From assembly GCA_903907995.1 (NCBI GenBank), contig CAIVQH010000006.1, forward strand, positions 1-39,105: a DNA stretch of 39,105 nucleotides. The letters run 5' to 3'. Within the stretch, counting starts at the first letter, position 1. Each line of letters starts with the position of its first letter. Both the position numbers and the translations under genes were made by a program. Below are positions 781 through 25,394 of the stretch, one piece after another. The notes under the pieces were generated by a model. It made no database searches. It saw only the letters and a list, made by a program, of their open reading frames with translations, and was not told the DNA's origin. The stretch is from an uncultured Verrucomicrobiota bacterium (GTDB lineage Bacteria; Verrucomicrobiota; Verrucomicrobiia; Limisphaerales; UBA9464).

Positions 781-797
781 TTGAGCCCTTGGCTCAA
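781..797 (-). terminator. Hairpin over the rpoN stop codon
   Basis: TTGAGCC at 781-787 and GGCTCAA at 791-797 form a perfect 7-bp stem with a CTT loop, overlapping the rpoN stop codon (794-796). On the minus strand the hairpin is followed by AATTTCG, a weak run of T, so termination is possible but not strong. Confidence 0.4.
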
Positions 798-2293
798 TAC
801 TTCTTTCGCAGGTGGCTGGGCAGGACGTTCAGCTCGGCGCGGTATTTGGCCACGGTGCGGCGGGCGATCATGATGCCCTTTTCCTTCAGCTTCGCGACGA
901 GTTCCTCGTCGGAGAGCGGGGAGGAGCTGTTCTCGTTGGAGATCAGTTCGGCGAGAATCGTTTTCACGCTCGTATTCGACATGTTCTCACCCGAGGAGGT
1001 GGCCACGCCGGAGGTGAAGAAGAACTTCATCTCGAACAGGCCCTGCGGGGTGGCCATGTACTTGCCCGAGACGGCTCGGCTCACGGTCGTCTCATGGACG
1101 CCCACGACTTCGGCGATCTGCACCATCGTCATGGGGTGAAGGTGGGTGACCCCCTTGTCCAGGAATTCCCGCTGCCGCTTCACGATCTCGTTGGCGATGT
1201 TGAGGATCGTGCTCTGGCGCTGGTGGATGCTCTTGATGAGGAATTTCCCCGCCTTGATCTTGTCGCGGATGTATTCGCGGACCTCGCCCGAGGTTTCGGC
1301 CTGGGTCAGCAAATCCTTGTAGTGGTTGCTGATCCGCAGGTGGGGAATGTGGTCGTTGTTGGTCGTGACGGTGTACTCGCCGTCTTCCCGCCGCACGACA
1401 TGGACCTCCGGCAGCACGTACTGGTTGCCATCCGGCGCATACACCCGGCCGGGACGCGGGTCGAGGTGGGCGATATTGCCCGCGAGCCGCTGGGCCTCGG
1501 CCGCCGTGATGCCAAGCTGGCGGGCGATCTCTGGATAGCGACGCTTGCCGAGCGACTCCATGTGGTCGCGAATGATGGCGTATTCGAGGGATTCCTGCCG
1601 GCCGGCCCGTTCCAGCTGGAGCATGAGGCACTCGCGCAAATCGCGGGCACCGACACCCGGGGGCTGGAAGCTCTGGACGACCTTGAGCGCGGTCTCGAGA
1701 TCCTCCAGGGAAAGCCCGGTGGAAAATGAAAGCTCCGAAAGTCCGGACTGGAGGTAACCGTGATCGTCGATGTTCCCGATGAGCAGTTCGGCGACCTGCC
1801 GGAGGCGTTCATCCAGGTCGGAAGTGCGCGCCTGATCGAGCAGCTCGGCCTGGAGCGAAGTCTCCGCCGTCAGCGAGTCGAACATGAACTGCCGCCGTTC
1901 CTCGTCCTCGGGCGTGGAGCGGTTGACGGTGTTCGTGGCGGAGAAATGGTCCCGCCATTCCTGATCGAGCTGGATCAGGCGCTGAAGTTCGACGTCGAGA
2001 CGGTCCACCGGCTCGTTGGACGGTTTCTCGGTCGAGGGGTCGTACTGCGTGTCCGGCGGCGGTTCGGTCGGGTCCAGCAGGGCGGCGGCATCGTCCGAGT
2101 TCGACTCGCGCTCCTCCTGGGAGATGTCACTGATGGCAGCCTCCTCGAGCATGGGGTTCTGCTGCAGCTCCTGCTCCACCATCGCCTTCAGTTCGAGCAC
2201 CGGCGCCTGCAGCAACGCCAGCGACTGCTGGAGCTGCGGCGACAGCACCATCTGCTGCGACATGCGCTGCGAGAGATGAAGACCCTGTGACAT
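794..2293 (-). CDS. rpoN: RNA polymerase sigma-54 factor RpoN
   Basis: The protein is a sigma-54 factor, which directs RNA polymerase to -24/-12 promoters and needs an AAA+ activator to open them. From the chosen ATG at 2291-2293 it has about 499 residues, a normal length. The N-terminal activator-interaction region is Gln-rich (RMSQQMVLSPQLQQSL), followed by an acidic linker, the core-binding region and a helix-turn-helix segment. The hallmark RpoN box is intact near the C-terminus (ARRTVAKYRAEL). The frame is open upstream to 2428, but those 45 residues do not look like a sigma-54 N-terminus, so I prefer the internal ATG. The gene is divergent from the MBL-fold gene at 2451. Flagellar genes are a frequent sigma-54 target, and a matching promoter-like site is seen near fliO. 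Confidence 0.96.
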   Translation of the reverse strand: MSQGLHLSQRMSQQMVLSPQLQQSLALLQAPVLELKAMVEQELQQNPMLEEAAISDISQEERESNSDDAAALLDPTEPPPDTQYDPSTEKPSNEPVDRLDVELQRLIQLDQEWRDHFSATNTVNRSTPEDEERRQFMFDSLTAETSLQAELLDQARTSDLDERLRQVAELLIGNIDDHGYLQSGLSELSFSTGLSLEDLETALKVVQSFQPPGVGARDLRECLMLQLERAGRQESLEYAIIRDHMESLGKRRYPEIARQLGITAAEAQRLAGNIAHLDPRPGRVYAPDGNQYVLPEVHVVRREDGEYTVTTNNDHIPHLRISNHYKDLLTQAETSGEVREYIRDKIKAGKFLIKSIHQRQSTILNIANEIVKRQREFLDKGVTHLHPMTMVQIAEVVGVHETTVSRAVSGKYMATPQGLFEMKFFFTSGVATSSGENMSNTSVKTILAELISNENSSSPLSDEELVAKLKEKGIMIARRTVAKYRAELNVLPSHLRKKY

Positions 2294-2450
2294 CTGGCGC
2301 GAGACTAACGCGGAAAGCCCTTTACACAAGCATTCCGTGAATCTGGCACGAATCTTGAGTGGTAGGCTTGACAGTCGGGTTCGCTTTCCGGAATTCCCCG
2401 CCAGGACGGAAAACCCTCGCCCGTCCATGGGTGCCGCCTAACCTCCGGCC

Positions 2451-13809: not shown

Positions 13810-14559
13810 TTATTTGGTTTTTGTGGGATCTTTGTCGTTTTTGACCTTCACGACGACACTCACGCGCCGGTTGCTTCCGTCAGTGCCTTGCCGGTCCGGC
13901 ATGGGCTGGGTGTCGGCATAGCCGGCCACCTTGCGGATCTGGGCTTCCGCGATGCCATGTTCGAGCAGCTTGCGACGGGCGGTGTTGGCGAAATCGGAAC
14001 TCAGCTCCCAGTTGCCATAATCCTCGCTCTTGGGCGTGTGCCCGACTTCGGTATGGCCCTCGAGCTCGATCAGGAACGAGGTGGAATAGCGCGACAGCTG
14101 CCACGCGAGCGTGGTGAAGACCCACTGTCCGTATTCGGTGAAGGACGCCGAGTCGGATTGGAAGATGGGCTTGTTGGCGCGGTTGAAGACGGTGATCCGG
14201 ATTCCTTCCGGCATGTAGTCGAGCTTTACCGCCTCCTCGTCCGGGGATTCCGGGTTGTGTGGCAGGGTCTTGAGGAAGTCGGCGGCCAGCTTGCGCAACA
14301 GCTTCAGTTCCAGCGCGGCCGGCGAATCGAAGTTGCCGCGCTCCGACTTGGGCGACTGCACATCCTTGGTGGGGATGATGCCGGAGGCCCCCGGAATCGG
14401 CGAGGCGAACGGATGGTTGAAGGAGCGCTGGACCGCCTCCTTGATCTTCTCGTCCTGCGAGGTGAGCCAGAGCACGAGAAAGAGCGCCATCATGGCCGTG
14501 ACAAAATCGGCATAGGCCACCTTCCAGGCGCCGCCGTGATGTCCGTGTTTTTTGGCCAT
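13810..14559 (-). CDS. motB: Flagellar motor stator protein MotB
   Basis: A 249-residue inner-membrane stator subunit. After a basic N-terminus (MAKKHGHHGG) comes one membrane helix with the proton-channel Asp in VAYADFVTAMMALFLVLWL (Asp18). A plug and linker follow, then a C-terminal OmpA-like peptidoglycan-binding domain (about 115-240) with LIELEGHTE, the NWELSSDFANTARR signature and GTDGSNRRVSVVV. With MotA it converts ion flow into torque. The start ATG lies 29 bp after the motA stop. Asp in the YADF context suits a proton stator, but the coupling ion cannot be proved from sequence. Confidence 0.95.
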   Translation of the reverse strand: MAKKHGHHGGAWKVAYADFVTAMMALFLVLWLTSQDEKIKEAVQRSFNHPFASPIPGASGIIPTKDVQSPKSERGNFDSPAALELKLLRKLAADFLKTLPHNPESPDEEAVKLDYMPEGIRITVFNRANKPIFQSDSASFTEYGQWVFTTLAWQLSRYSTSFLIELEGHTEVGHTPKSEDYGNWELSSDFANTARRKLLEHGIAEAQIRKVAGYADTQPMPDRQGTDGSNRRVSVVVKVKNDKDPTKTK

Positions 14560-14587: not shown

Positions 14588-15439
14588 CTACTTGCCTTTA
14601 AGGAGGGCCTCGAGTTCGTCCGCCGTGGGTTTGAGGTCGCTGCTGAGACCGCGCCGGCCCATCTCGACGGCCATGATCGGGGCCATTCCGTTGACGAAGC
14701 CGACCACGGAGGCCGCGATGCACTTGGAATACGCCAGCTCCGAGGCCCCCATGAATTCCATGTTGACCGCGAGCGGTCCCAGGAAGCCGTAGGAAATCAG
14801 AATGCCGAGGAAGGTGCCGACCAGGGCGGCGGCCACGTGGTGACCGATCTCCTCGATCGGGCCCGCAATCGAACCCATCGTGATCACGATGCCGAGCACC
14901 GCCGCCACGATGCCGAAGCCGGGCATGGCGTCGGAAACCTTGTTCAGCACGCCGACCGGGGCGTGATGCTCATTCTCCATGGCCTCGAGCTCGATCGCGA
15001 CCAGCGGCTGCAACTGGTCGGGCTTGACCTTGCCATCGATGATCGGGCGGAGGGCACCGCACATCAGTTCCATGGCGTGATGGTTTTTGAGGAAATTGGG
15101 GTACTTGCTGAAGATGCTGCTCGATTCGGGGTTCATGACGTGCGACTCGAGCGCCACCATGCCGCTGCGCCGGCCGAGCATGAACAGCTCATAGAGGATG
15201 CGGAACAGCTCCTCATAGGCCGCCTTGTTATAGGGAGTGCCTTTGAGCGTGCCGAGGATCTGCTTGACCATGTCCATCAGCACCTTCTTCGGCGACATGA
15301 TGATCATCGCCCCCAGGGCCGCGCCGCAGATGACCACGAACTCAGAGACCTGGATCAGAGCGCCCATGTGGCCGCCGGCCATCATGAAGCCGCCCATGAC
15401 CGAGAGCAGAACCACCACCGCGCCTATGATGACAATCAT
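14588..15439 (-). CDS. motA: Flagellar motor stator protein MotA
   Basis: A 283-residue membrane protein with four predicted helices, two near the N-terminus (residues 1-20 and about 32-50) and two after a cytoplasmic loop (about 170-220). The loop holds the conserved FMLGRRSGMVALESHV segment that contacts FliG, and the third-helix PGFGIVAAVLGIVITMG block is intact. The length matches the longer MotA type (about 285-295). The gene lies 21 bp behind fliA and 28 bp before motB. It forms a 5:2 complex with MotB, by family knowledge. Confidence 0.96.
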   Translation of the reverse strand: MIVIIGAVVVLLSVMGGFMMAGGHMGALIQVSEFVVICGAALGAMIIMSPKKVLMDMVKQILGTLKGTPYNKAAYEELFRILYELFMLGRRSGMVALESHVMNPESSSIFSKYPNFLKNHHAMELMCGALRPIIDGKVKPDQLQPLVAIELEAMENEHHAPVGVLNKVSDAMPGFGIVAAVLGIVITMGSIAGPIEEIGHHVAAALVGTFLGILISYGFLGPLAVNMEFMGASELAYSKCIAASVVGFVNGMAPIMAVEMGRRGLSSDLKPTADELEALLKGK

Positions 15440-15460: not shown

Positions 15461-16273
15461 TTAGGCCGCCATCTCGCACTCGTGGTTCTGGAGGAACGCA
15501 CGGATGTTGAGGATGGCCTGGGAGTGGATCTGGCAGATGCGCGACTCGGTCACGCCGAAGACCTCGGCGATCTCGCGCAAACGGAGGTCTTCAAAATAAT
15601 ACAGGGCCAGCACCTTGCGCTGCATTTCCGGCAGCTGCTTGAGGCGTTCGCCGATGACCGCCGCCAGCTCGTGACGTGACACCTGGGCCACCGGATCCTC
15701 CTGCGACTCGTCGGCGACGCTCTCGTAGCGGGTCGTGTCCGAATCGCTTTCCCCGTCGGCATTGGGCGAGGCGTCGAGGCACACGAAGGTGGCCGGGCGG
15801 ATTTCATCCAGCAGGGTCTCGTAGTCCTTGAGCGAAAGTTCCATCGCACGCGCCACCATGGGGGCGGTGGGAACCTGGCCGTTGGCCTGTTCCAGCTCCG
15901 AAATCACGGCCTGCACGCGGCGCGCCTTGTCGTGGACCGAGCGCGGAACCCAGTCGAGCCGGCGCAGCTCGTCGAGCACCGCGCCGCGGATGCGTACCCG
16001 GGCGTAGGATTCGAAGGAGCTGCCACCCTCGGGATCGTGGTTGCGGACCGCGTTCAGCAGACCGACCAGGCCGGAGCTGTTGAGGTCCTCGATGTCCACA
16101 TGCGAGGGCAGGCTCATGGCCATGCGGCCCACCACCGTGCGCACGAGGGGCAGGTAGCGCTCCACCAGGTCCGCCTCGGCGACGCTGCCGGGCTCGATGT
16201 GATAGCGCCGGGTCAGTTCCTGCTTGCGACGCCGGTCGGGCGAGACAGGAGTTGGATTTGCAATGGCCGTCAT
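15461..16273 (-). CDS. fliA: Flagellar sigma factor FliA (sigma-28/WhiG type)
   Basis: A 270-residue sigma-70 family protein of the FliA/WhiG group. Region 2 holds ERYLPLVRTVVGRMA, DIEDLNSSGLVGLLNAV and SYARVRIRGAVLDELRRLDW with the family pattern RxRGAxxDxLRxxDWxPR. Region 4 has the helix-turn-helix LREIAEVFGVTESRICQIHSQ. It would direct transcription of late flagellar genes such as flagellin, none of which is in this window. The region between 2 and 4 includes an acidic, low-complexity piece (PNADGESDSD). It sits 6 bp after the 82-residue gene. No FlgM anti-sigma gene is visible nearby. Confidence 0.94.
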   Translation of the reverse strand: MTAIANPTPVSPDRRRKQELTRRYHIEPGSVAEADLVERYLPLVRTVVGRMAMSLPSHVDIEDLNSSGLVGLLNAVRNHDPEGGSSFESYARVRIRGAVLDELRRLDWVPRSVHDKARRVQAVISELEQANGQVPTAPMVARAMELSLKDYETLLDEIRPATFVCLDASPNADGESDSDTTRYESVADESQEDPVAQVSRHELAAVIGERLKQLPEMQRKVLALYYFEDLRLREIAEVFGVTESRICQIHSQAILNIRAFLQNHECEMAA

Positions 16274-16607: not shown

Positions 16608-17714
16608 CTATTTCGTGGCGAATTGGGTCGTGAATATTTTTTCCGGGCTCGCCGGGACAAAATCTCCCGGAACATTTTGCCCGGCGCTTAGGAAGCGGAT
16701 CGGTAAATTAGTCCCCAGCGCCAGATTCCACAGCTTGCCCCAGCGCGGCTCCTCATCAAGGTGCGTCACGATCACGTCCGCGAGGGGGAGCGCGGCGAAG
16801 GCCCGGGCCTGCGCCAGCAGCAGGGGCACCTCATAGGCGGCGTTCAGTACTAGGTGAAGGTGGGGGCTCCCTAGGGTCGAGGTCTGCCGATGCAGTTCGG
16901 CGAGGGCGGCCGGGTTGCGCCAGTTGACGCCGGGGAGGTCAACGAACGCGATGCTGGCGCCCTCCGCCTCAGCCGTGCCCCGCCAGAACCGGCTCACGGG
17001 CACGCCCAGGATCTCCCCGTAAACGCTCAGGGTCTCCGCCGTGTTCGCCGTGGTACCATCCAGCCGCCAAACATGCGCGGAGCGACCTTCCACCAACACT
17101 GTTTGGGCCAGCCATTTGCAAAGCGCGGTGGTCTTGCCGCTGCCTGCCGCCCCCACGAAGACGTGCGGGCGCTCCGGGGTGGCCGGCATTTCCGGGGCGG
17201 ACCGCCACATCCGGCCCATGACGCGGCGGGCGAGGGCGATCTCGGCGGCCAGGGTGGATGGTGGCGTCGGCCCATGCTCTGCCATCATCGCGTCCAAAAT
17301 GCGCTGCACGGGCAGGCGGGAGAGCCCGGTCTGCTCCAGCAGTTGCGCGACGGGCCAAGAATGGCCGGAGCTGTGGTGATACGCATCGGGGATGGCGATC
17401 CTTACCCCCACCTCGCGGGGCACCGGCTCGGCCACGGGCACGCTGACCGGCGGTGCGGCGTCCATCCGGGTACGGATATCCGCCAATTCCCGGCGCAATT
17501 CCTCAAAGCCTTCCGGCAAAGTGGGGACGGCGGGTGCGGCGGTCTTTTCCGGAACATGCGCCACCACCTCGATCCGGGACTTCTGCCAGAGCCGGGAGAG
17601 GCCGGAGGCCGGCAGCTGGCGGACGTTCAGCACGACGGCATCCTCACCCAGCTGCGCGCGGATCTGCCCGATGGCATCAGCGGCGGAATCGGCAATGAAC
17701 GTCTGGGTGGGCAC
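16608..17714 (-). CDS. flhF: FlhF-like SRP-type GTPase
   Basis: A 368-residue protein from GTG 17712-17714. The N-terminal part has the FlhF start motif (TQTFIADSAADAIGQIRAQL), then a Pro-rich linker at about 55-105, a helical N domain, and the GTPase core with P-loop GAAGSGKTT at 188-196. FlhF helps to place the flagellum at the pole and to recruit FliF. Two core motifs are atypical: the usual DTAGR is DLPGV at 259-263, lacking the Arg, and the TKxD motif is THLD at 317-320. GTP hydrolysis may therefore be altered. The usual partner FlhG is not next to it. It lies between flhA and the 82-residue gene. Confidence 0.85.
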   Translation of the reverse strand: MPTQTFIADSAADAIGQIRAQLGEDAVVLNVRQLPASGLSRLWQKSRIEVVAHVPEKTAAPAVPTLPEGFEELRRELADIRTRMDAAPPVSVPVAEPVPREVGVRIAIPDAYHHSSGHSWPVAQLLEQTGLSRLPVQRILDAMMAEHGPTPPSTLAAEIALARRVMGRMWRSAPEMPATPERPHVFVGAAGSGKTTALCKWLAQTVLVEGRSAHVWRLDGTTANTAETLSVYGEILGVPVSRFWRGTAEAEGASIAFVDLPGVNWRNPAALAELHRQTSTLGSPHLHLVLNAAYEVPLLLAQARAFAALPLADVIVTHLDEEPRWGKLWNLALGTNLPIRFLSAGQNVPGDFVPASPEKIFTTQFATK

Positions 17715-17752: not shown

Positions 17753-19870
17753 TTACTCCGGGCAGGGGATGGTGGCGGTGCTCTGGATTTCCACCCGGGC
17801 CGGCACCTCGGAGTAGGCGAGCACGTTCAGATCGGCGAACGTCGTCTCAAAGAAGCGGCGGAAGCTCAGGCGGATCTGCGGCGCGCAAAGCACCAGCGGG
17901 GGGGCGCCGGCGGCGAGCATCTGCTGAATGTGCCGCGACAGCGTGTCCACGATGTGCTTGGCGACCTTCGGATCGAGCATCAGCAACACCTCCGTGGCCG
18001 AATGGCGGACACCCTGGGCGATCAGCTGCTCCAATTTGGCGTCTAGAGTGATCGCGCGCAGGCTGCCTTTTTCATTCTGGAAGGGCTTGATGAACTGCGC
18101 TCCCAGCGCCTTGCGGGCGTGCTCCGAAAGCTCGTCAGGATTCTTCGTGATGCCGGCATAGTCGCCGACCTTTTCGAGGATGCCGGCGAGGTTCCGGATC
18201 GAAATGCCTTCGGCGAGCAGGTTTTGCAGGATGCGCTGCACCTGGCCGACGTTGAGCTGGGTCGGGATCAGCTCGTTCACCACGGTCGGGTGCGTCAGTT
18301 TCAGGTTGTCGAGCAGGTTCTGGACATCCTGGCGGCTGAGCACCTCGTGGCAATGGCGGCGGAGGGTCTCGGAGAGGTGCGTGACCAGCACGGATGCGGA
18401 ATCCACCACCGTGAAGCCGCCGACCTCGGCATTCTTGCGCTCCACGTCGGTGACCCAGGTGGCCGGCAGTTGGAAGACCGGTTCCACAGTCGGCACACCC
18501 TTGAGCTGAAGGCGGCTGTTGGTGGCGTTCATGGCCAGCCAGTGACCCGGCATGAGGGCCCCGGTGGCGACCGCGCTGCCCTTCAGCACGAAGCGGTAGT
18601 CGTTGGCACCGAGCTGGAGATTGTCGCGGAGCTTGATGGGCGGGATGATGATGCCCATCTCCTGGGCGAACGTGCGCCGCACCCCCGTCACGCGCTCCAG
18701 CAGGTCCCCGCCCTTGCGGGTGTCCGCGAGGCTGACGAGGCCGTAGCCCAGCTCGATCTGCAGGGCGTCGAGCGTCAGCAGGTTTTCCAGCTTTTCACCC
18801 GCGCCGCCCGGGGCGGCGGCAGCACCGGGAGTCCCGGGGGCTCCAGCTGGGGCCGGTTTGCCGGACTTGGCAGCTTCGGCGGCTTCAGCCGCGGCTGCCG
18901 CAGGGACCTGCTTGTGGAGGTGTACGGCCAGGTAACCCGTGGCGACCGACAGCACCAGGAAAGGCAGCATCGGCAGGCCGGGCACGATGGCGAAAACCCC
19001 GAGCATCACCGAGAGGATTGTCATGGCGCGCGGATAGTAGAGCAGCTGCCGGCCCAGCTCCTTGCCCAGGCTGTCCTTGGAGGCGGCCCGGGTCACCAGC
19101 ATGCCGGCCGCCATCGAGGTGATGAGCGCCGGGATCTGGGAGACCAGGCCGTCACCGATGGACAGCAGGGTGAAGCGCTGGAGCGCGTCGTTCACGCTCA
19201 TGCCGCGCTGGGCGATGCCGATGGCGAAGCCGCCGAGCACGTTGATCAGCGTGATCAGCACCGCCGCGATGGCGTCACCGCGGACGAACTTGCTCGCGCC
19301 GTCCATCGCGCCGTAAAAGTCGGCCTCCTGCTCCACCTTGCGCCGGCGGGCACGGGCCTCGGCCTCGTTGATCATGCCCGCGTTGAGTTCGGCATCGATC
19401 GCCATCTGCTTGCCGGGCATGGCGTCGAGGGTGAACCGCGCGGCCACCTCGGCGATGCGACCCGCGCCCTTGGTGATGACCACGAAGTTGATCAGCACCA
19501 GGATCAGGAAGACCACCAGGCCGACGACATAGTTGCCCCGGACCACGAAGTTGCCGAAGGCCTCGATGATGTGGCCGGCGAACCCGTCAAGCAGGATCAG
19601 GCGCGTGGAAGCGACGTTGAGCGCCAGCCGGAAGAGCGTCGTGAACAGCAGGAGCGAGGGGAAGCCGCTGAAATCCGACGGATCCTTGACGTAGAGGATG
19701 ATCAGCAGGATCAGGAGCGCGAGCGCGATGCTCACGCTCAGCAGCAGGTCCAGCAGCAGCGGCGGGACCGGCAGCACCAGCATCAGCACGGTGCTGAATA
19801 CGCCGACGACCAGCCAGAGATCGCTCTGCTTGAAAAACCGCAGGAAGGATTGTTCGGATTTGGCCGCCAC
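17753..19870 (-). CDS. flhA: Flagellar export gate protein FlhA
   Basis: A 705-residue FHIPEP-family protein starting at GTG 19868-19870, 3 bp from the flhB stop. The first 325 residues form about eight membrane helices. They include the signature around FRLALNVASTRLILL and the cytoplasmic FHIPEP loop (AARFTLDAMPGKQMAIDAEL, then GAMDGASKFVRGDAI). An Ala/Pro/Gly-rich linker at about 325-360 joins the membrane part to the cytosolic domain (about 365-705), which receives chaperone-substrate complexes and forms a nonameric ring in the family. The linker is longer and lower in complexity than I would expect. No broken motif is seen. Confidence 0.96.
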   Translation of the reverse strand: MAAKSEQSFLRFFKQSDLWLVVGVFSTVLMLVLPVPPLLLDLLLSVSIALALLILLIILYVKDPSDFSGFPSLLLFTTLFRLALNVASTRLILLDGFAGHIIEAFGNFVVRGNYVVGLVVFLILVLINFVVITKGAGRIAEVAARFTLDAMPGKQMAIDAELNAGMINEAEARARRRKVEQEADFYGAMDGASKFVRGDAIAAVLITLINVLGGFAIGIAQRGMSVNDALQRFTLLSIGDGLVSQIPALITSMAAGMLVTRAASKDSLGKELGRQLLYYPRAMTILSVMLGVFAIVPGLPMLPFLVLSVATGYLAVHLHKQVPAAAAAEAAEAAKSGKPAPAGAPGTPGAAAAPGGAGEKLENLLTLDALQIELGYGLVSLADTRKGGDLLERVTGVRRTFAQEMGIIIPPIKLRDNLQLGANDYRFVLKGSAVATGALMPGHWLAMNATNSRLQLKGVPTVEPVFQLPATWVTDVERKNAEVGGFTVVDSASVLVTHLSETLRRHCHEVLSRQDVQNLLDNLKLTHPTVVNELIPTQLNVGQVQRILQNLLAEGISIRNLAGILEKVGDYAGITKNPDELSEHARKALGAQFIKPFQNEKGSLRAITLDAKLEQLIAQGVRHSATEVLLMLDPKVAKHIVDTLSRHIQQMLAAGAPPLVLCAPQIRLSFRRFFETTFADLNVLAYSEVPARVEIQSTATIPCPE

Positions 19871-19873
19871 AGG

Positions 19874-20959
19874 TCAGGATTGGTTGAGCTCCGCGTAGTA
19901 GCGGTAGCGGTTGGTGCGGTACACGTAGGCGAGGACTTCGGCGACTGCCGCAAAGAGCTGGGCCGGGATTTCGCCGCCCACGCGGCCGTACTTGAACATC
20001 ATGCGCGCCAGGGGTTTGTTCTCGATCACGGGTACCTGGTGCTGCTTCGCGATCTCGCGGATGCGGAGCGCGTTGAGGCGCGAGCCCTTGGCAATGATCT
20101 GCGGGGCCTTCATCGTCTTGCGGTCATAGCGCAGCGCGATGGCGAGGTGGGTCGGGTTGGTCAGCACCACGTCCGCCTTGGGGACATCGAGCAGCATCTG
20201 CCGGGTGGATTTCGGCCGGCGACGGCGGCGCATCTTCGCCTTCACGTGCGGATTGCCTTCCGTGCCCTTCATCTCCTCCTTGACCTCTTCCTTGGTCATC
20301 ATCAGGTCCTGGCCGGTGCGCCAGAGCTGGTAGCCGTAGTCGATTGAGGCGAGCATCATCAGCACCGAGGCGATCGTCAGAAACACGTGGTAGGCGGCTC
20401 CCGCCATGAAGATGCCGATGCGCTGGATGTCCACCACCGTGTGAAAGATCGGGTCATCCAGCACCTTCTTCACCTGCGAATAGGAGAGCGTGACGATGCC
20501 CGCCAGCTTGAGGCAGGAGAGGGCCGTGGGCGCGAGGGACTTGGTGGAGAAGATCCGCTGAAAGCCCGTCATCGGGTTGAGCCGTTCCCATTTGATGGTC
20601 AGGGCCTCCGAGGCGGTCTGGAAGCGGCTCTGAATGCTGCCCGCCAGCACGCCGCCCACCATGGTGGCCAGCACGATCGGGGCGACGCAGGCGGCAAACA
20701 CCAGTCCTCCGTCAATCGCATAGCGCTGGAGCAGGTTGGCCGAGAGCGGGGTGTCGTGCAGGTGGCTGAACATCCGGATCAGCGCGTGCGACAGCCGGTT
20801 CCACAGGTCCGAGCCGGTGAACTGGAGCGCCATCAGGGCCGCGAAGAGCACGAACACGGTCTGGACCTCGGCGCTGCGGGCGAACTGGCCGTTCTTGACC
20901 GCCTCCTCCAGCCGCCGCTGCGTTGGCAGCTCTGTTTTTTCTCCGGCGTGTTCGCTCAC
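19874..20959 (-). CDS. flhB: Flagellar export switch protein FlhB
   Basis: A 361-residue protein from GTG 20957-20959. Its start, EHAGEKTELPTQRRLEEA, is the usual FlhB opening, followed by four membrane helices. The cytoplasmic domain has the autocleavage motif NPTH (near residue 270, in VVLTNPTHLAIALRY), which controls the switch from hook to filament export. The C-terminal part, IREIAKQHQVPVIENKPLAR, is also conserved. It lies 18 bp behind fliR and 3 bp before flhA. Confidence 0.96.
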   Translation of the reverse strand: MSEHAGEKTELPTQRRLEEAVKNGQFARSAEVQTVFVLFAALMALQFTGSDLWNRLSHALIRMFSHLHDTPLSANLLQRYAIDGGLVFAACVAPIVLATMVGGVLAGSIQSRFQTASEALTIKWERLNPMTGFQRIFSTKSLAPTALSCLKLAGIVTLSYSQVKKVLDDPIFHTVVDIQRIGIFMAGAAYHVFLTIASVLMMLASIDYGYQLWRTGQDLMMTKEEVKEEMKGTEGNPHVKAKMRRRRRPKSTRQMLLDVPKADVVLTNPTHLAIALRYDRKTMKAPQIIAKGSRLNALRIREIAKQHQVPVIENKPLARMMFKYGRVGGEIPAQLFAAVAEVLAYVYRTNRYRYYAELNQS

Positions 20960-20977: not shown

Positions 20978-21745
20978 TCAGGCCGTGCCGAGCAGCTGGG
21001 CGACCTTCATCAGGTCGGCCGGCAGCCGGCGCAGGTAGTTGGCGATGTGCTGTCCCATGAGGGTGCAGGTCACCCCGAACGTCAGCAGCCCCGCGAGCGA
21101 ACGCGCGGTGGTGCCCTCGTAGAAAACGTTCATCTGCGGCACCGCCCGGCCCAGCAGGGCGAACACGAGCGTCACCAGGAAGGAGACGGCCATGACCGGC
21201 GCGGCGATCTGCAGGGCGATCACGAAGATGCGGCCGCTGCGGAGAATCACGTCGTACAGCAGGGCTTCCTTCAGGTGGATGCCGCCGATGGAGGCCACCA
21301 GATAGCTCTGTTGAAGGCCGGCCAGCATCCAGTGATGCAGGTCCAACGAGAGGAACATCACCACCGCCAGCCAGTAGAGCGTCGCACTCGTCAGCGGGGT
21401 GGTGCTGGGGGCGAGGGGGTTGAAGATGGTGGACATCGAGAGCCCCATCTCGGTCGAAATGAGCCCACCCGCCAATTCCACAGCGTAGAAGACGAAGCGG
21501 CAGACAAACCCCAGCAGCAGGCCGACGCTCGCTTCCGAGAAGAACAGGCTGAACAGCCCCCAGATTGTGGCAGGCATGGGCGGCGCCGAGGGCACCGTGG
21601 GGGCGATCACCGCCGCCGTCAGGCCGCACAGGGCGATCCGGATGAGGACCGGCACCGGCGTCGCCGTGAAAATCGGCAGGGCGAGCAGCAGCGCGCTGAT
21701 CCGCACAAACACATACATCCAAGTGGTCAGGTCCTGGTAGAGCAT
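20978..21745 (-). CDS. fliR: Flagellar export gate protein FliR
   Basis: A 255-residue hydrophobic protein with about six membrane helices. It has FliR marks such as VFVRISALLLALPIF near the start, GFVCRFVFYAVELAGGLIS in the middle (with a conserved GE/GG segment) and VNVFYEG-like sequence (MNVFYEGTTARSLAGLL) near the end. With FliP and FliQ it forms the helical export gate. It is 13 bp from the fliQ stop and 18 bp before flhB. Confidence 0.94.
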   Translation of the reverse strand: MLYQDLTTWMYVFVRISALLLALPIFTATPVPVLIRIALCGLTAAVIAPTVPSAPPMPATIWGLFSLFFSEASVGLLLGFVCRFVFYAVELAGGLISTEMGLSMSTIFNPLAPSTTPLTSATLYWLAVVMFLSLDLHHWMLAGLQQSYLVASIGGIHLKEALLYDVILRSGRIFVIALQIAAPVMAVSFLVTLVFALLGRAVPQMNVFYEGTTARSLAGLLTFGVTCTLMGQHIANYLRRLPADLMKVAQLLGTA

Positions 21746-21758
21746 AGGCCGGGGCGGC

Positions 21759-22028
21759 TCAGTGAACCATCTGGGGCATCTTCTGGATGACGGAGGTGGT
21801 GAACTCGATGGTGGTCCGCAGCATCCACGGCAGCAGGATCACGGTGAGCACACAGATGCCGACCATCTTGGGCACGAAGGTCAGGGTCTGTTCCTGGATC
21901 GAGGTGACGGCCTGGAACAGGCTGACCGCGAGCCCGATGGCCATGGCGGTCATCAGCATCGGGACCGCCAGGGCGGCGGCTTGGAGGATCATGGCCTTGA
22001 TCAGTTCGGTGGCGAATTCGGGGGTCAT
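21759..22028 (-). CDS. fliQ: Flagellar export gate protein FliQ
   Basis: An 89-residue protein with two membrane helices and the family motif VSLFQAVTSIQEQTLTFVPK between them. The length is exactly that of typical FliQ. It lies 31 bp after fliP and 13 bp before fliR, in the usual P-Q-R order. Confidence 0.95.
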   Translation of the reverse strand: MTPEFATELIKAMILQAAALAVPMLMTAMAIGLAVSLFQAVTSIQEQTLTFVPKMVGICVLTVILLPWMLRTTIEFTTSVIQKMPQMVH

Positions 22029-22059: not shown

Positions 22060-22869
22060 CTAGCTGCCGAAGCTGAGGATCAGCGACCGGACCACCAGGT
22101 CCCAGCCGTCCACGAGCACAAAAAGGAGGATTTTCAGGGGGAGCGCCACCGTGGCGGGCGGCATCATCATCATGCCCATGCTCATCAGCACCGTGGCGAC
22201 GACGAGGTCGATCAGCACCAGGGGCACAAAGAGCAGGAAGCCCATCTGGAAGGCGGTCCGCAGCTCACTGATGATGAACGCCGGGATCACCACGCGCAGG
22301 GGCAGCACGGCCGGTTCGGTGGCTGGCAGGCGGGCCAGTTCGGCGAACAGTTCCACATCCTTCGCCCGGGTCTGCTTCAGCATGAACGAGCGCAGCGGCT
22401 TTGCGGCGGCGTCCATGGCCTCATCGCTGGAGATCTGCTTGGCGATATAGGGCTGGATGGCGGTCTGGTCGATCTGGTTCCAGACCGGCTGCATGATGAA
22501 ATAGGTCATGAACAGCGACAGGCCGATGAGGATCTGGTTGGCCGGGGTGCCCTGAAGCGAAAGCGCCGAGCGGACGAACGACAGCACGATCACGATCCGC
22601 GTGAAGCACGTCATCAGCAGCACGATGGAGGGAGCCAGCGTGAGCAGCGTCATCACGAAGAGAACCTTGATCGCAACATCTACATCCTGCGGCTGCGAAC
22701 CGGTGTCCACGCCGACGTTGAAGCGGAACGGCGTGGTGGCGGGGGCGGAAGTCACGCCCTGCGCCTGGGTCGCCAGCACCCCGAAGGCCGCCAGCGCGAG
22801 GAACAGCAGGGAGTACCGCAGCCAGGCGGGTTTCAGGAGGCGGATCAGGATGGTGGAGGCGGACTTCAC
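22060..22869 (-). CDS. fliP: Flagellar export gate protein FliP
   Basis: I chose the GTG at 22867-22869, giving 269 residues. It is preceded by the fliO stop (22880-22882) and followed directly by a hydrophobic signal (PAWLRYSLLFLALAAFGV). The frame is open to an ATG at 22917, which would overlap fliO by 38 bp. The mature protein has the FliP blocks LLTLAPSIVLLMTCFTRI, FVRSALSLQGTPANQIL, PAFIISELRTAFQMGF and the Met-rich SMGMMMMPP. Like other FliP proteins it has a cleaved signal and four membrane helices, and it builds the gate with FliQ and FliR. Confidence 0.95.
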   Translation of the reverse strand: MKSASTILIRLLKPAWLRYSLLFLALAAFGVLATQAQGVTSAPATTPFRFNVGVDTGSQPQDVDVAIKVLFVMTLLTLAPSIVLLMTCFTRIVIVLSFVRSALSLQGTPANQILIGLSLFMTYFIMQPVWNQIDQTAIQPYIAKQISSDEAMDAAAKPLRSFMLKQTRAKDVELFAELARLPATEPAVLPLRVVIPAFIISELRTAFQMGFLLFVPLVLIDLVVATVLMSMGMMMMPPATVALPLKILLFVLVDGWDLVVRSLILSFGS

Positions 22870-22879
22870 GGAAGCGGGG

Positions 22880-23419
22880 TTAGCGGCGGCCAAGGGTTTG
22901 CAGCAGGGTATCGGCAAAGGAGACGCTTGGTGCCGGGGCGTCGCTGGCCGCCTCGGTTGCCTCGGGCAACTGGCTTAGCAGCGTCACGCCGGTGGGTGAG
23001 GTCGCCAGCAGCAGCCGCTGCCGTTCGTAGCCAACGACATAGAGCGAATGTCGCTGACCGAGGGATTTGACCTCCAGCACGTTCAGGCGCGCAGTGCCGG
23101 GCCGCTTGAGGCCGAGGCGGCGGCTGTTCCGCACAAACCATTGCACGCCAAAGAGCAGGGCGACCATCAGCGCCAGCGCGCCGAGGAGGCGGACCAGCGG
23201 CAGGACGAGGGAGGGAGAAGGTGGCAGTCCGACCGCGGGCGCGGCGTTCGTTTGGAGGAGTGGGAACGCGTTCGTTCCTTCACCCAGAAGGCTGGTCGTC
23301 GTGACCAGCGTCAGCACGAGTGCGGCAAAGAGGACTGCCCGCAAGAATGCTGCTCGACGCAGACTGCCGAAGTTGAAATTACCGATGGAAAACATCGCTC
23401 CGGCCTTCAAGCAGCGCAT
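22880..23419 (-). CDS. fliO: Flagellar biosynthesis protein FliO
   Basis: A 179-residue protein with a signal-like helix at about 22-45, a second membrane helix at about 70-95 (LVRLLGALALMVALLFGVQWF), and a small cytoplasmic domain with the FliO pattern LNVLEVKSLGQRHSLYVVGY. FliO helps FliP to assemble. It is the first gene of the flagellar cluster here. The ATG at 23417-23419 lies inside a sigma-54-like promoter, so the true start may be the ATG at 23395 (residue 9), which would leave an almost leaderless mRNA if that promoter is used. Confidence 0.88.
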   Translation of the reverse strand: MRCLKAGAMFSIGNFNFGSLRRAAFLRAVLFAALVLTLVTTTSLLGEGTNAFPLLQTNAAPAVGLPPSPSLVLPLVRLLGALALMVALLFGVQWFVRNSRRLGLKRPGTARLNVLEVKSLGQRHSLYVVGYERQRLLLATSPTGVTLLSQLPEATEAASDAPAPSVSFADTLLQTLGRR

Positions 23420-23426
23420 GTGCCAT
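23409..23426 (-). promoter_or_regulatory. Sigma-54 (-24/-12) promoter-like site before fliO
   Basis: On the minus strand, TGGCAC, five bases, then CTGCTT. The GG and GC doublets are separated by ten bases, as required for sigma-54, and only the first T of the TTGC box is changed. Predicted +1 is near 23399, just inside the annotated fliO 5' end. It is the only good match I found near the flagellar operon start. Confidence 0.5.
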
Positions 23427-23609
23427 TGGAGGAATTGCCCTATTTACAACAGGTTACATACGAACTTGGACTGCATGGGAAGGTTTTGCCTCCCCAATTC
23501 AAGGATCACTAGGCAAAGAGCGCACACGGGAGATGGGGCGTGCAGAAAATGCCGCCTGAGGGGATTTACAGCGGCGGAAGCGCTTAATACTTAAGGGCCG
23601 ACCGTCCGT

Positions 23610-25394
23610 TCAAGGCATTCGGAGGCGATACAGCCGGGTCGGATTGTTCGTCCATTGCGGGTCGCCGAAGAATGCCGGACCACCCGTGAGGGTGTTGGTG
23701 CTTAGGGGCAGCCAAGCGGGGCTGGAGAGGTCGGTGGCCGCTTCGACGACGAAGGGCAGGCCACCAGTCCCGGTGACGTTAAACCCGAATTTTCCCTCCC
23801 GCACCCCCAAGACGCCATCAGCGGTCACGATTTGGACATCCCACACAGCAGTCGGGTGGCTCGCGAACGTATCGCCCCAGCCGATGGTGCCCGGGCGATA
23901 ATAGACCGTGGTATTGGCGTTGCCGTCGAACTGGTCTTCGGCAGCGCTGGGCGCGTCGCCCTGGAAAAACACCTGTCGCAGGCTGACGCAGTCGGAAAAC
24001 ACCGCGTCCCCGAGTTCGGTGACTCCGGCAGGGATCGTCAACTGGGACAGGCTGGTGCAGTAATAAAACGCCTCGTCACCGATATGCGTCAGGCTGTCGG
24101 GGAGCGTGACATTGGTCAGACCGAAACAGCCGAAGAACGCAAATTCTGCGATGTCCGAGACCCCTTCGGGGATGGTGATCCGGGTCAGGGCGGGGCAGTT
24201 GTAGAACGCCGAATCCGGAATGGCGCTCAGCCCCCGGGACAGCGTGACGTCGGCCAGATGGGTGCAGAAATAACACGCCGAGATGCCGATGTTCGTGACC
24301 CCGTCGGGCATGGTCAGGTTGGTCAGGGCGATGCAATATTGGAACGCCAGGTTGCCAATGCTGGTGAGGCCGGTGCCCAGCCTCAGGCCGGTGAGGAGGG
24401 TGCACTTTTGGAACGCCTCGTCGCCGATGCTGCTGACGCTGTCGGGCAGGCTGACGGCGGTGAGCGCGCGACAATGCTGGAATGCATAGCCACCGATGGC
24501 CGTGACCCCTTCGGGGACCGTGTAGCTGCCCGCCCGATGCAGCGGATACTGGATCAGCAGCGTCCGGGCCTTGTCGAAGAGCACCCCGTCCAGGCTGCTG
24601 TAGTAGGCATTGAGCGATTCCACGGTGACCGCCTGGCAGCCTGAAAAGGCGGAGATGCCGATGCGGGTGACGCTCGCGGGGATCGAGACTCCGGGCAGGA
24701 TGCAATCGATGAACGCCCCGTCGCCAATGCTGTCCAGGTTGCGGCCAAGCGTCACCTCGCTCAGACCGTAACACTCCGCGAAGGACTGGTATCCGAGGCT
24801 GACCACACTGTCTGGAATCACCACGCGCGAGAGGCTCGTGCAGTCCTGAAACGCCTGATCGCCAATGACGATGACGCCCGTGCCCAATCCGACGTTCGTC
24901 AGGCTGCGGCAGTCCATGAACGCCCCGATCCCGAGGTTGGTCACGGAATTGGGAATGCTGACGCCAGCCAGGCCGGTGCAGAACGCGAACGCCCCGTCAC
25001 CGATGTCCGTCAGCCCGTCGGGAAGAGTGACATTGGTCAGGCCATAGCAATCGGAGAACACGTCCGGCTCAATCACCGTCACGCCGGCCGGAATGGTGAA
25101 GCTGGTCAGCCCGTAGCATTCCGCGAACGCCCCGCTGCCAATGCGGATGATATTGGTCCCGAGCCGGATGCCGGTGAGTGCCGAGCTGGCGAAGGCACCG
25201 TCCCCGATGGCCGTGATCGGCAGGCCGTCAATGGTGTCGGGGACCGTCAGCACGGTGTCGGACCCGGCATAGCCCGTGATGGTGATCGCGGTCCCGTCGT
25301 TCGTGTAGCTCAACTGGGCGCGGCTCACGGCCGGCCAGGCCAGCAGCAGCGCCAGCAGGAGACGCGTGAAACCGCGTTGACGGACAATGAACAT
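23610..25394 (-). CDS. Secreted BspA-type leucine-rich repeat protein
   Basis: A 594-residue protein with a signal peptide (to about residue 26, cleaved near VSRAQ). Residues about 30-490 are some eighteen LRR_5 (BspA-like) repeats of about 23 residues, of the type ...IGDGAFxxCxxLTxVxIPxxVTxIG. Similar repeats bind surfaces or other proteins; no catalytic site is seen. The last 60 residues (from about 535) form a beta-rich domain ending in TRLYRLRMP that resembles the ends of other secreted proteins in this window. The 190 bp between this gene and fliO hold the sigma-54-like site; the gene itself is unlikely to be flagellar. Confidence 0.88.
   Translation of the reverse strand: MFIVRQRGFTRLLLALLLAWPAVSRAQLSYTNDGTAITITGYAGSDTVLTVPDTIDGLPITAIGDGAFASSALTGIRLGTNIIRIGSGAFAECYGLTSFTIPAGVTVIEPDVFSDCYGLTNVTLPDGLTDIGDGAFAFCTGLAGVSIPNSVTNLGIGAFMDCRSLTNVGLGTGVIVIGDQAFQDCTSLSRVVIPDSVVSLGYQSFAECYGLSEVTLGRNLDSIGDGAFIDCILPGVSIPASVTRIGISAFSGCQAVTVESLNAYYSSLDGVLFDKARTLLIQYPLHRAGSYTVPEGVTAIGGYAFQHCRALTAVSLPDSVSSIGDEAFQKCTLLTGLRLGTGLTSIGNLAFQYCIALTNLTMPDGVTNIGISACYFCTHLADVTLSRGLSAIPDSAFYNCPALTRITIPEGVSDIAEFAFFGCFGLTNVTLPDSLTHIGDEAFYYCTSLSQLTIPAGVTELGDAVFSDCVSLRQVFFQGDAPSAAEDQFDGNANTTVYYRPGTIGWGDTFASHPTAVWDVQIVTADGVLGVREGKFGFNVTGTGGLPFVVEAATDLSSPAWLPLSTNTLTGGPAFFGDPQWTNNPTRLYRLRMP

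Follow-up and report, generated by a model that had tools for sequence, protein, structure and literature searches.

A sigma-54 promoter and upstream palindrome predicted at the head of a flagellar export-gate operon in an uncultured Verrucomicrobiota bacterium

The export-gate genes and the site before fliO

The window, a stretch of 39,105 nucleotides from an uncultured Verrucomicrobiota bacterium, carries on its minus strand a long run of flagellar genes headed by fliO. As read from the promoter described here, fliO occupies 22880-23395 and encodes 171 residues from an ATG at 23395, with a predicted leader of AGCG. Its 179-residue form scores 46.4 bits with the Pfam FliO model (cut-off 22), and the 171-residue form scores 46.1 bits with TIGR03500, below the cut-off of 55.25. 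Pfam models identify the genes that follow as fliP (22060-22917), fliQ (21759-22028), fliR (20978-21745), flhB (19874-20959) and flhA (17753-19870). Beyond these lie a gene for an FlhF-like GTPase (16608-17714; a Pfam SRP54 match, with the FlhF model below its cut-off), one for a sigma-28-type factor of the FliA/WhiG family (15461-16273; above the TIGR02479 cut-off), and motA (14588-15439) and motB (13810-14559), both matched by Pfam. From their strand and order we assume that these last four genes probably also belong to the fliO operon. On the upstream side, an intergenic stretch separates the site from a leucine-rich-repeat gene that ends at 23610.

A first-pass annotation of this DNA had noted a sigma-54-type −24/−12 match of correct spacing at the start of the export-gate cluster, with rpoN in the same window. 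Both observations stand, in that fliO, fliP, fliQ, fliR, flhB and flhA all lie downstream of the site on the same strand and that rpoN is present at 794-2428 (minus strand), but rpoN is some 20 kb away and does not adjoin the site. It is the only match for sigma-54 in the 5.1 Mb genome, which is 95.7% complete.

The site itself, TGGCACATGCGCTGCTT (23409-23425, minus strand), reads TGGCAC-N5-CTGCTT from 23425 to 23409, with the GG at 23424-23423 and the GC at 23412-23411. The ten nucleotides that separate them are the spacing required of the −24/−12 class, within TGGCAY-N5-YTGCW, and the minus strand continues directly after the site as GAAGGCCGGAGCGATG. With a general sigma-54 weight matrix, whose maximum is 20.1, the site scores 18.1, the highest value in the window and the only one of 15 or more. 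Over 100 dinucleotide shuffles of the window, positions of at least 18 averaged 0.02 (two shuffles had one each) and positions of at least 15 averaged 0.62. The pattern used in the first-pass annotation, which had been fitted to the site, matches the window once against 0.01 expected from shuffling. An Rfam scan gave no family at gathering scores in the window, and none at E values up to 1 in 23300-23650.

Across the genome, abundance lends no support. The strict pattern TGGCACN5YTGCW has 6 matches compared with 19 for its reversal, and the looser YGGCAYN6TGCTT has 10 compared with 20; we therefore abandoned any argument from enrichment, and the fliO site by itself is weak evidence. A strict site that is not over-represented is what might be cited for chance resemblance in GC-rich sequence. 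We consider this explanation barely credible, however, since it is contradicted both by the persistence of site and phased palindrome together among distant relatives and by the finding that all three combined matches of palindrome and promoter in this genome head flagellar genes, as set out below.

In sigma-54 promoters the RNA begins about 12 nucleotides after the GC of the −12 element. This places the predicted RNA start at 23399 on the minus strand, 12 nucleotides past the −12 C and uncertain by 1-2 nucleotides. The start thus falls where the first-pass annotation had put it, past the ATG at 23419 that opens the longest fliO reading frame and four bases before the in-frame ATG at 23395, so that fliO made from this promoter would start at 23395.

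Conservation of the site and its upstream palindrome

Relatives were drawn from two samples, 80 titled fliP loci and 58 whole genomes (labelled G000 for the genome of the window, G001 and so on), the latter supplying 30 fliP loci; the relatives are not independent of one another, and the titled loci overlap the whole genomes. The closest by FliP are metagenome genomes labelled Verrucomicrobia, with a few labelled Pedosphaera or Limisphaerales. In the nearest of all, G003, the site is identical letter for letter, which proves little because identity across the whole region is about 90%. In farther relatives the DNA upstream of fliO differs by eye, yet a sigma-54 site is present, the sequences just before fliO being TGGCACATCCGTTGCTT in G014, TGGCACACCCAGTGCTT in G020, TGGCAYYCCCCCTGCTT in G001, G006 and G007, CGGCACACCTACTGCTT in G009, CGGCACAACCGTTGCTC in G034 and CGGCATACCCGTTGCTT in G016.

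Enough upstream DNA for scoring was available at 77 of the 80 titled loci. The top sigma-54 score is at least 13.3 in 21 of these and at most 10.2 in the remaining 56, with control maxima of 11.4 for the matrix read backwards and 11.6 for the other strand. The first-pass annotation had proposed alignment in relatives as a check, and at the whole-genome loci the outcome is favourable: the site is kept upstream of fliO, together with a palindrome that begins 54-66 bp upstream of it, in 15 of 30. One of the 30 is without upstream DNA. Site and palindrome occur at all 11 loci that have no FliN match upstream of fliO, compared with 4 of the 18 where FliN lies close upstream, as expected of a promoter needed mainly where fliO heads its own operon. 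A sigma-54 site stands without the palindrome at 4 of the 21 titled loci and at 2 of 17 whole-genome loci (G037 and G057). A second FliP, 50-52% identical to that of the window, is encoded in G026 (L043), G034 (L044), G022 (L045) and G028 (contig C40); no sigma-54 site precedes it at L043 or L045, and L044 is without upstream DNA.

The palindrome was first spotted by eye, in the 300 bp upstream of sigma-54 sites at fliO loci, and its consensus, GGMA-N5-TKCC, was defined on those loci only. It may resemble the ftr elements of Caulobacter. In the window it is represented by GGCAAAACCTTCC (23478-23490, minus strand), centred at about −85 from the predicted RNA start and a candidate activator site. 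Two weak candidates lie farther up on the same strand, a distal half-site, TGCGCTCTTTGCC (23512-23524), 34 bp upstream of the palindrome, and a further copy, GGCATTTTCTGCA (23541-23553), 63 bp upstream of it, which scores 6.0 compared with 12.0 for the proximal palindrome. An inverted repeat in the same region, TTTGCCT/AGGCAAA (23517-23485), was considered as a stem or single operator and rejected; its letters are more plausibly those of the distal half-site together with the first part of the proximal palindrome. At most fliO loci the palindrome starts 64-67 bp before the promoter; in G001, G006 and G007 the distance is 54 bp, one helical turn less, and at four distant titled loci it is 99-130 bp.

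A combined pattern, comprising palindrome, a gap of 38-68 bp and promoter, was sought in all 58 genomes; spacings outside that range are invisible to this search. In the genome of the window it has three matches, before fliO, before flgF on contig C60 and before flgB on contig C18, and the reversed pattern has none. The C18 gene product is above the FlgB cut-off; that of C60 is above the cut-off of the FlgEFG subfamily and below that of the FlgF equivalog. From translations of the open reading frames, judged by eye, the flgB operon continues through fliF, fliI, flgE, fliM and fliN. In all, 92 matches were found, of which 44 were taken as real promoters from their gap and downstream gene: 15 before fliO, 9 before flgF, 13 before flgB, 6 before an unnamed protein of 150-170 residues, and one (L146) in G045, whose downstream gene is not recognised. 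The flgF and flgB copies are out-of-sample recoveries, the palindrome having come from fliO loci. The other 48 matches are coding or unexplained, some of them also with gaps of 52-55 bp, and L228, with a gap of 53 bp, is borderline as a promoter.

The unnamed protein (L218-L223; 151-172 residues, with a REACVLRRNGR-type motif) is encoded behind this palindrome and promoter in six genomes, all from a single sister genus; its L218 representative has no match in Pfam or NCBIfam. A 35% homolog is encoded in the genome of the window at C23:111547, where no combined match was found.

The spacing of palindrome and promoter is stepped. For this count, and for that of second sites, the three G003 examples were left out as near-duplicates of those in G000; of the remaining 41 promoters, 34 have a gap of 51-55 bp, 3 one of 41 bp and 4 one of 63-65 bp. 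Steps of about 11 bp are as expected for a protein that needs one face of the DNA. The best score for a second activator site falls at −31 to −36 in 14 of the 41 promoters and at −22 or −23 in 9. A second, weaker activator site upstream is thus suggestive only, because many of these scores are low and several of the promoters come from close relatives.

Conservation, the phased palindrome and the co-occurring activator gene described next all support the sigma-54 reading in the first-pass annotation, and the sequence before fliO is almost certainly a genuine sigma-54 promoter. That annotation had overlooked the palindrome, the activator, the sister promoters at flgF and flgB, and what the site implies for a leaderless message.

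A candidate activator and its reach

A gene for a receiver-type enhancer-binding protein (bEBP) is found in the flagellin/fliD region of the same genome (G000:C60:190361-191779). The receiver, sigma-54-interaction and Fis-type helix-turn-helix domains of its product all score over their cut-offs. Activator, flagellin and fliD share a 7-kb stretch, with one open reading frame between activator and fliD and with flagellin and FliD both recognised by Pfam; on the other side of the activator gene is a FlgN-like gene, assigned by eye in the absence of a family match. No cognate flagellar sensor kinase was recognised by eye beside the activator gene. The combined palindrome and sigma-54 pattern is absent from the stretch that carries flagellin and fliD (L240, G000:C60:180001-199000), and the FliA-type factor of the window (15461-16273) may serve these two genes.

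Of the 58 genomes, 26 encode an ortholog of the C60 activator (at least 486 bits, the next-best match being 397); in G034, G051 and G052 a single in-frame stop interrupts the match. Orthologs occur in 24 of the 27 genomes where FliP is matched compared with 2 of the 31 where it is not (Fisher test, 7e-11, for relatives that are not independent). The exceptions are G040, G047 (where FliP is a fragment) and G057, which have FliP and no activator, and G043 and G051, which have the activator and no FliP. Palindrome promoters before flagellar genes are present in 22 of the 26 activator genomes and in none of the 32 others (Fisher test, 2.7e-12, with the same dependence among relatives); within the gap range of 38-68 bp, no flagellar copy was recognised in G035, G045, G049 or G051. 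Summed over genomes, 72 combined matches fall in the 26 activator genomes and 20 in the 32 others, whereas the reversed pattern gives 32 over the full set of 58. In four relatives the activator gene precedes the flgB promoter and shares its strand, the distance from the end of the activator match to the palindrome being 129 bp in G001, 173 bp in G006, 480 bp in G007 and 564 bp in G002.

Could the palindrome and promoter cooperate through some other sigma-54 activator? The genome has ten strong Sigma54_activat matches, one of them partial, and the co-occurrence counts concern the one protein that was profiled over the 58 genomes. That this protein co-occurs with the palindrome promoters and sits near flagellar genes argues against a different binder, which we consider improbable; the C60 activator itself quite likely acts at the palindrome promoters.

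In its domain set, and in its co-occurrence with and linkage to flagellar genes, the C60 activator corresponds to the FlrC/FlgR/FleR type. It scores 319.2 of the 750 needed with the curated Campylobacter FlgR model and 400.6 of 750 with that for FlbD, and because it is below both cut-offs it is not classed as either. The likeness to the Caulobacter FlbD/ftr system lies in an NtrC-family activator that serves sigma-54 flagellar promoters through short DNA elements, as described in the available parts of PMC3930126 and PMC3096577; unlike FlbD, the C60 protein is below the FlbD model cut-off, and its receiver domain is over the cut-off. An ftr consensus was not found in the literature searched, which included those parts of the two papers.

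The site, the palindrome, their spacing, the flagellar genes downstream and the co-occurrence with an activator gene are all seen in the sequences themselves. We propose that RpoN polymerase would occupy the −24/−12 site of the fliOPQR-flhBA operon and that the C60 bEBP would bind the GGMA-N5-TKCC palindrome, centred roughly 85 bp ahead of the RNA start, together with the weaker copies farther up, and open the promoter through ATP hydrolysis. RNA would begin at about 23399, fliO would be translated from the ATG at 23395 with almost no leader, and the transcript would probably continue through flhF, fliA, motA and motB. The flgB and flgF operons would be under the same activator in the same arrangement, and a shared activator would thus make the rod, MS ring, C ring, hook and export gate one sigma-54 regulon. 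For fliO, a sigma-54 promoter of the fliOPQR-flhBA operon, activated by the C60 bEBP through the palindrome and with an RNA start near 23399, is very likely, where we infer the binding, the RNA start, the extent of the operon and the leaderless translation. More broadly, it is most likely through the C60 activator that RpoN transcribes the basal-body genes, those of the export gate among them.

Start codons, leaders and comparison with known systems

The proximity of the promoter to the start codon is itself conserved. The first-pass annotation had suggested that fliO may start at 23395 or later, and the relatives favour 23395: in 14 of the 15 genomes with a fliO promoter, the genome of the window included, the open frame offers its first start codon 0-8 nucleotides past the predicted RNA start. 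The exception is G020, with a TTG 2 nucleotides before the predicted RNA start; there an in-frame ATG 4 nucleotides past the RNA start was taken instead. Predicted leaders are 0-8 nucleotides for the 15 fliO promoters, 2-5 for the 9 flgF promoters and 13-22 for the 13 flgB promoters. For flgB, in-frame GTG codons at 8 nucleotides (G000 and G003) and a TTG at 13 nucleotides (G014) were passed over for the ATG that agrees with other FlgB starts. The flgF start is fixed because its N terminus, NVSLYQAAAAMNA in several relatives and NVSIAQSAAAMNA in the genome of the window, aligns with the first residues of rod-protein models.

Leaderless mRNAs have been defined as those with a 5′ leader of less than about 8 nucleotides (PMC10783764, in the part available). 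On the predicted lengths, which depend on the sigma-54 spacing rule, both the fliO and flgF messages are probably leaderless, and for fliO alone we lean clearly towards that reading. Two features speak against it. Many of the predicted leaderless starts are GTG, and a Sinorhizobium study (PMC3616915), in the text available, notes that E. coli makes poor use of start codons other than AUG when the message is leaderless. Also, Shine-Dalgarno-like GAAGG and GGAG lie between the −12 element and the fliO start codon, and would be in keeping with a longer message made from a different promoter.

Is fliO then read only, or mainly, from this promoter? The sigma-54 promoter could be genuine and yet be neither the only nor the main one, with a sigma-70-type promoter farther upstream giving a leadered fliO message on which GAAGG/GGAG (23408-23399) would be the ribosome-binding site. 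Such an arrangement would account for the purines before the ATG at 23395, and has precedent in polar flagellates such as Caulobacter, where the ring and export-gate genes are transcribed ahead of the sigma-54 rod and hook tier (PMC7064773, available text). The Shine-Dalgarno-like stretch, however, is not retained before fliO of G014, G020, G034 and G009 and before flgF of the window's own genome, while the sigma-54 site and palindrome are kept. We therefore regard this alternative as unlikely, though much less so than the others, and prefer transcription of fliO from the sigma-54 promoter; additional sigma-70 promoters may nevertheless exist. Because the abutment of sigma-54 promoter and start codon is conserved, leaderless translation of flagellar genes can be tested directly; if it occurs, fliO and flgF would be translated without Shine-Dalgarno recognition.

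Judged from its genes and motifs, the arrangement appears to be a variant of FlrC/FlgR/FlbD-type control. It resembles the systems of Vibrio (FlrC), Pseudomonas (FleR) and Campylobacter (FlgR), in which, from the available text of PMC7064773, a response-regulator activator works with RpoN at rod and hook promoters. In that text, on Caulobacter, rings and export gate come before the sigma-54 rod and hook tier; here the same motif heads the export-gate operon and the flgB operon with its fliF, fliM and fliN (by eye). In Vibrio, such genes are also under sigma-54 control through FlrA, a separate activator, whereas here one receiver-type activator would serve both tiers.

The difference bears on how flagellar assembly is ordered. 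The available part of PMC7064773 describes ring and export-gate proteins as needed for activator function in Caulobacter and Vibrio. That one response-regulator activator here directly switches on all three basal-body operons, rings and export gate included, flattening the hierarchy into a loop, with two of the three promoters leaderless, is a proposal for which we see the chances as even. If it is true, the rings and export gate, which are the checkpoint for such activators in other polar flagellates, become targets of the activator, and a rule by which completion of the gate permits sigma-54 transcription would have to be modified.

Within the same phylum, sigma-54 control of motility genes has been predicted for Opitutia (PMC12316311), the only report on such control in this phylum among the literature listings and texts covered; for those promoters its available text gives neither an enhancer motif nor an activator nor a leader length, and the words leaderless, Limisphaer and Pedosphaer are absent from it. 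No cis-element, spacing rule or activator for flagellar control in the present group was found in the literature as searched, partial texts included. The present analysis offers all three, the activator as a candidate, for a group represented here almost only by metagenome genomes.

Finally, sigma-54-like sites stand before further genes. Before an RtcB-like gene (by eye) is TGGCACGACCGTTGCTT (L012; G000:C23:30657-30673, minus strand), near a divergent sigma-54 activator domain at C23:31386; the GTG of the gene lies 2 nucleotides past the predicted RNA start, and its message may be leaderless. Similar sites precede pseudopilin-like genes (by eye) at L050 and L058 in the genome of the window and at L049 in G003, and for L049 and L058 an ATG lies 1 nucleotide past the predicted RNA start. 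Abutment of site and start codon, seen at the rtcB-like and two pseudopilin-like genes, is not a general rule here, since the predicted leaders of a glutamine-synthetase-like (glnA-like) gene and others run to about 40-75 nucleotides; the glnA-like gene (by eye), behind a sigma-54-like site on the plus strand at G000:C19:61558 (L052), has a predicted leader of about 41 nucleotides.
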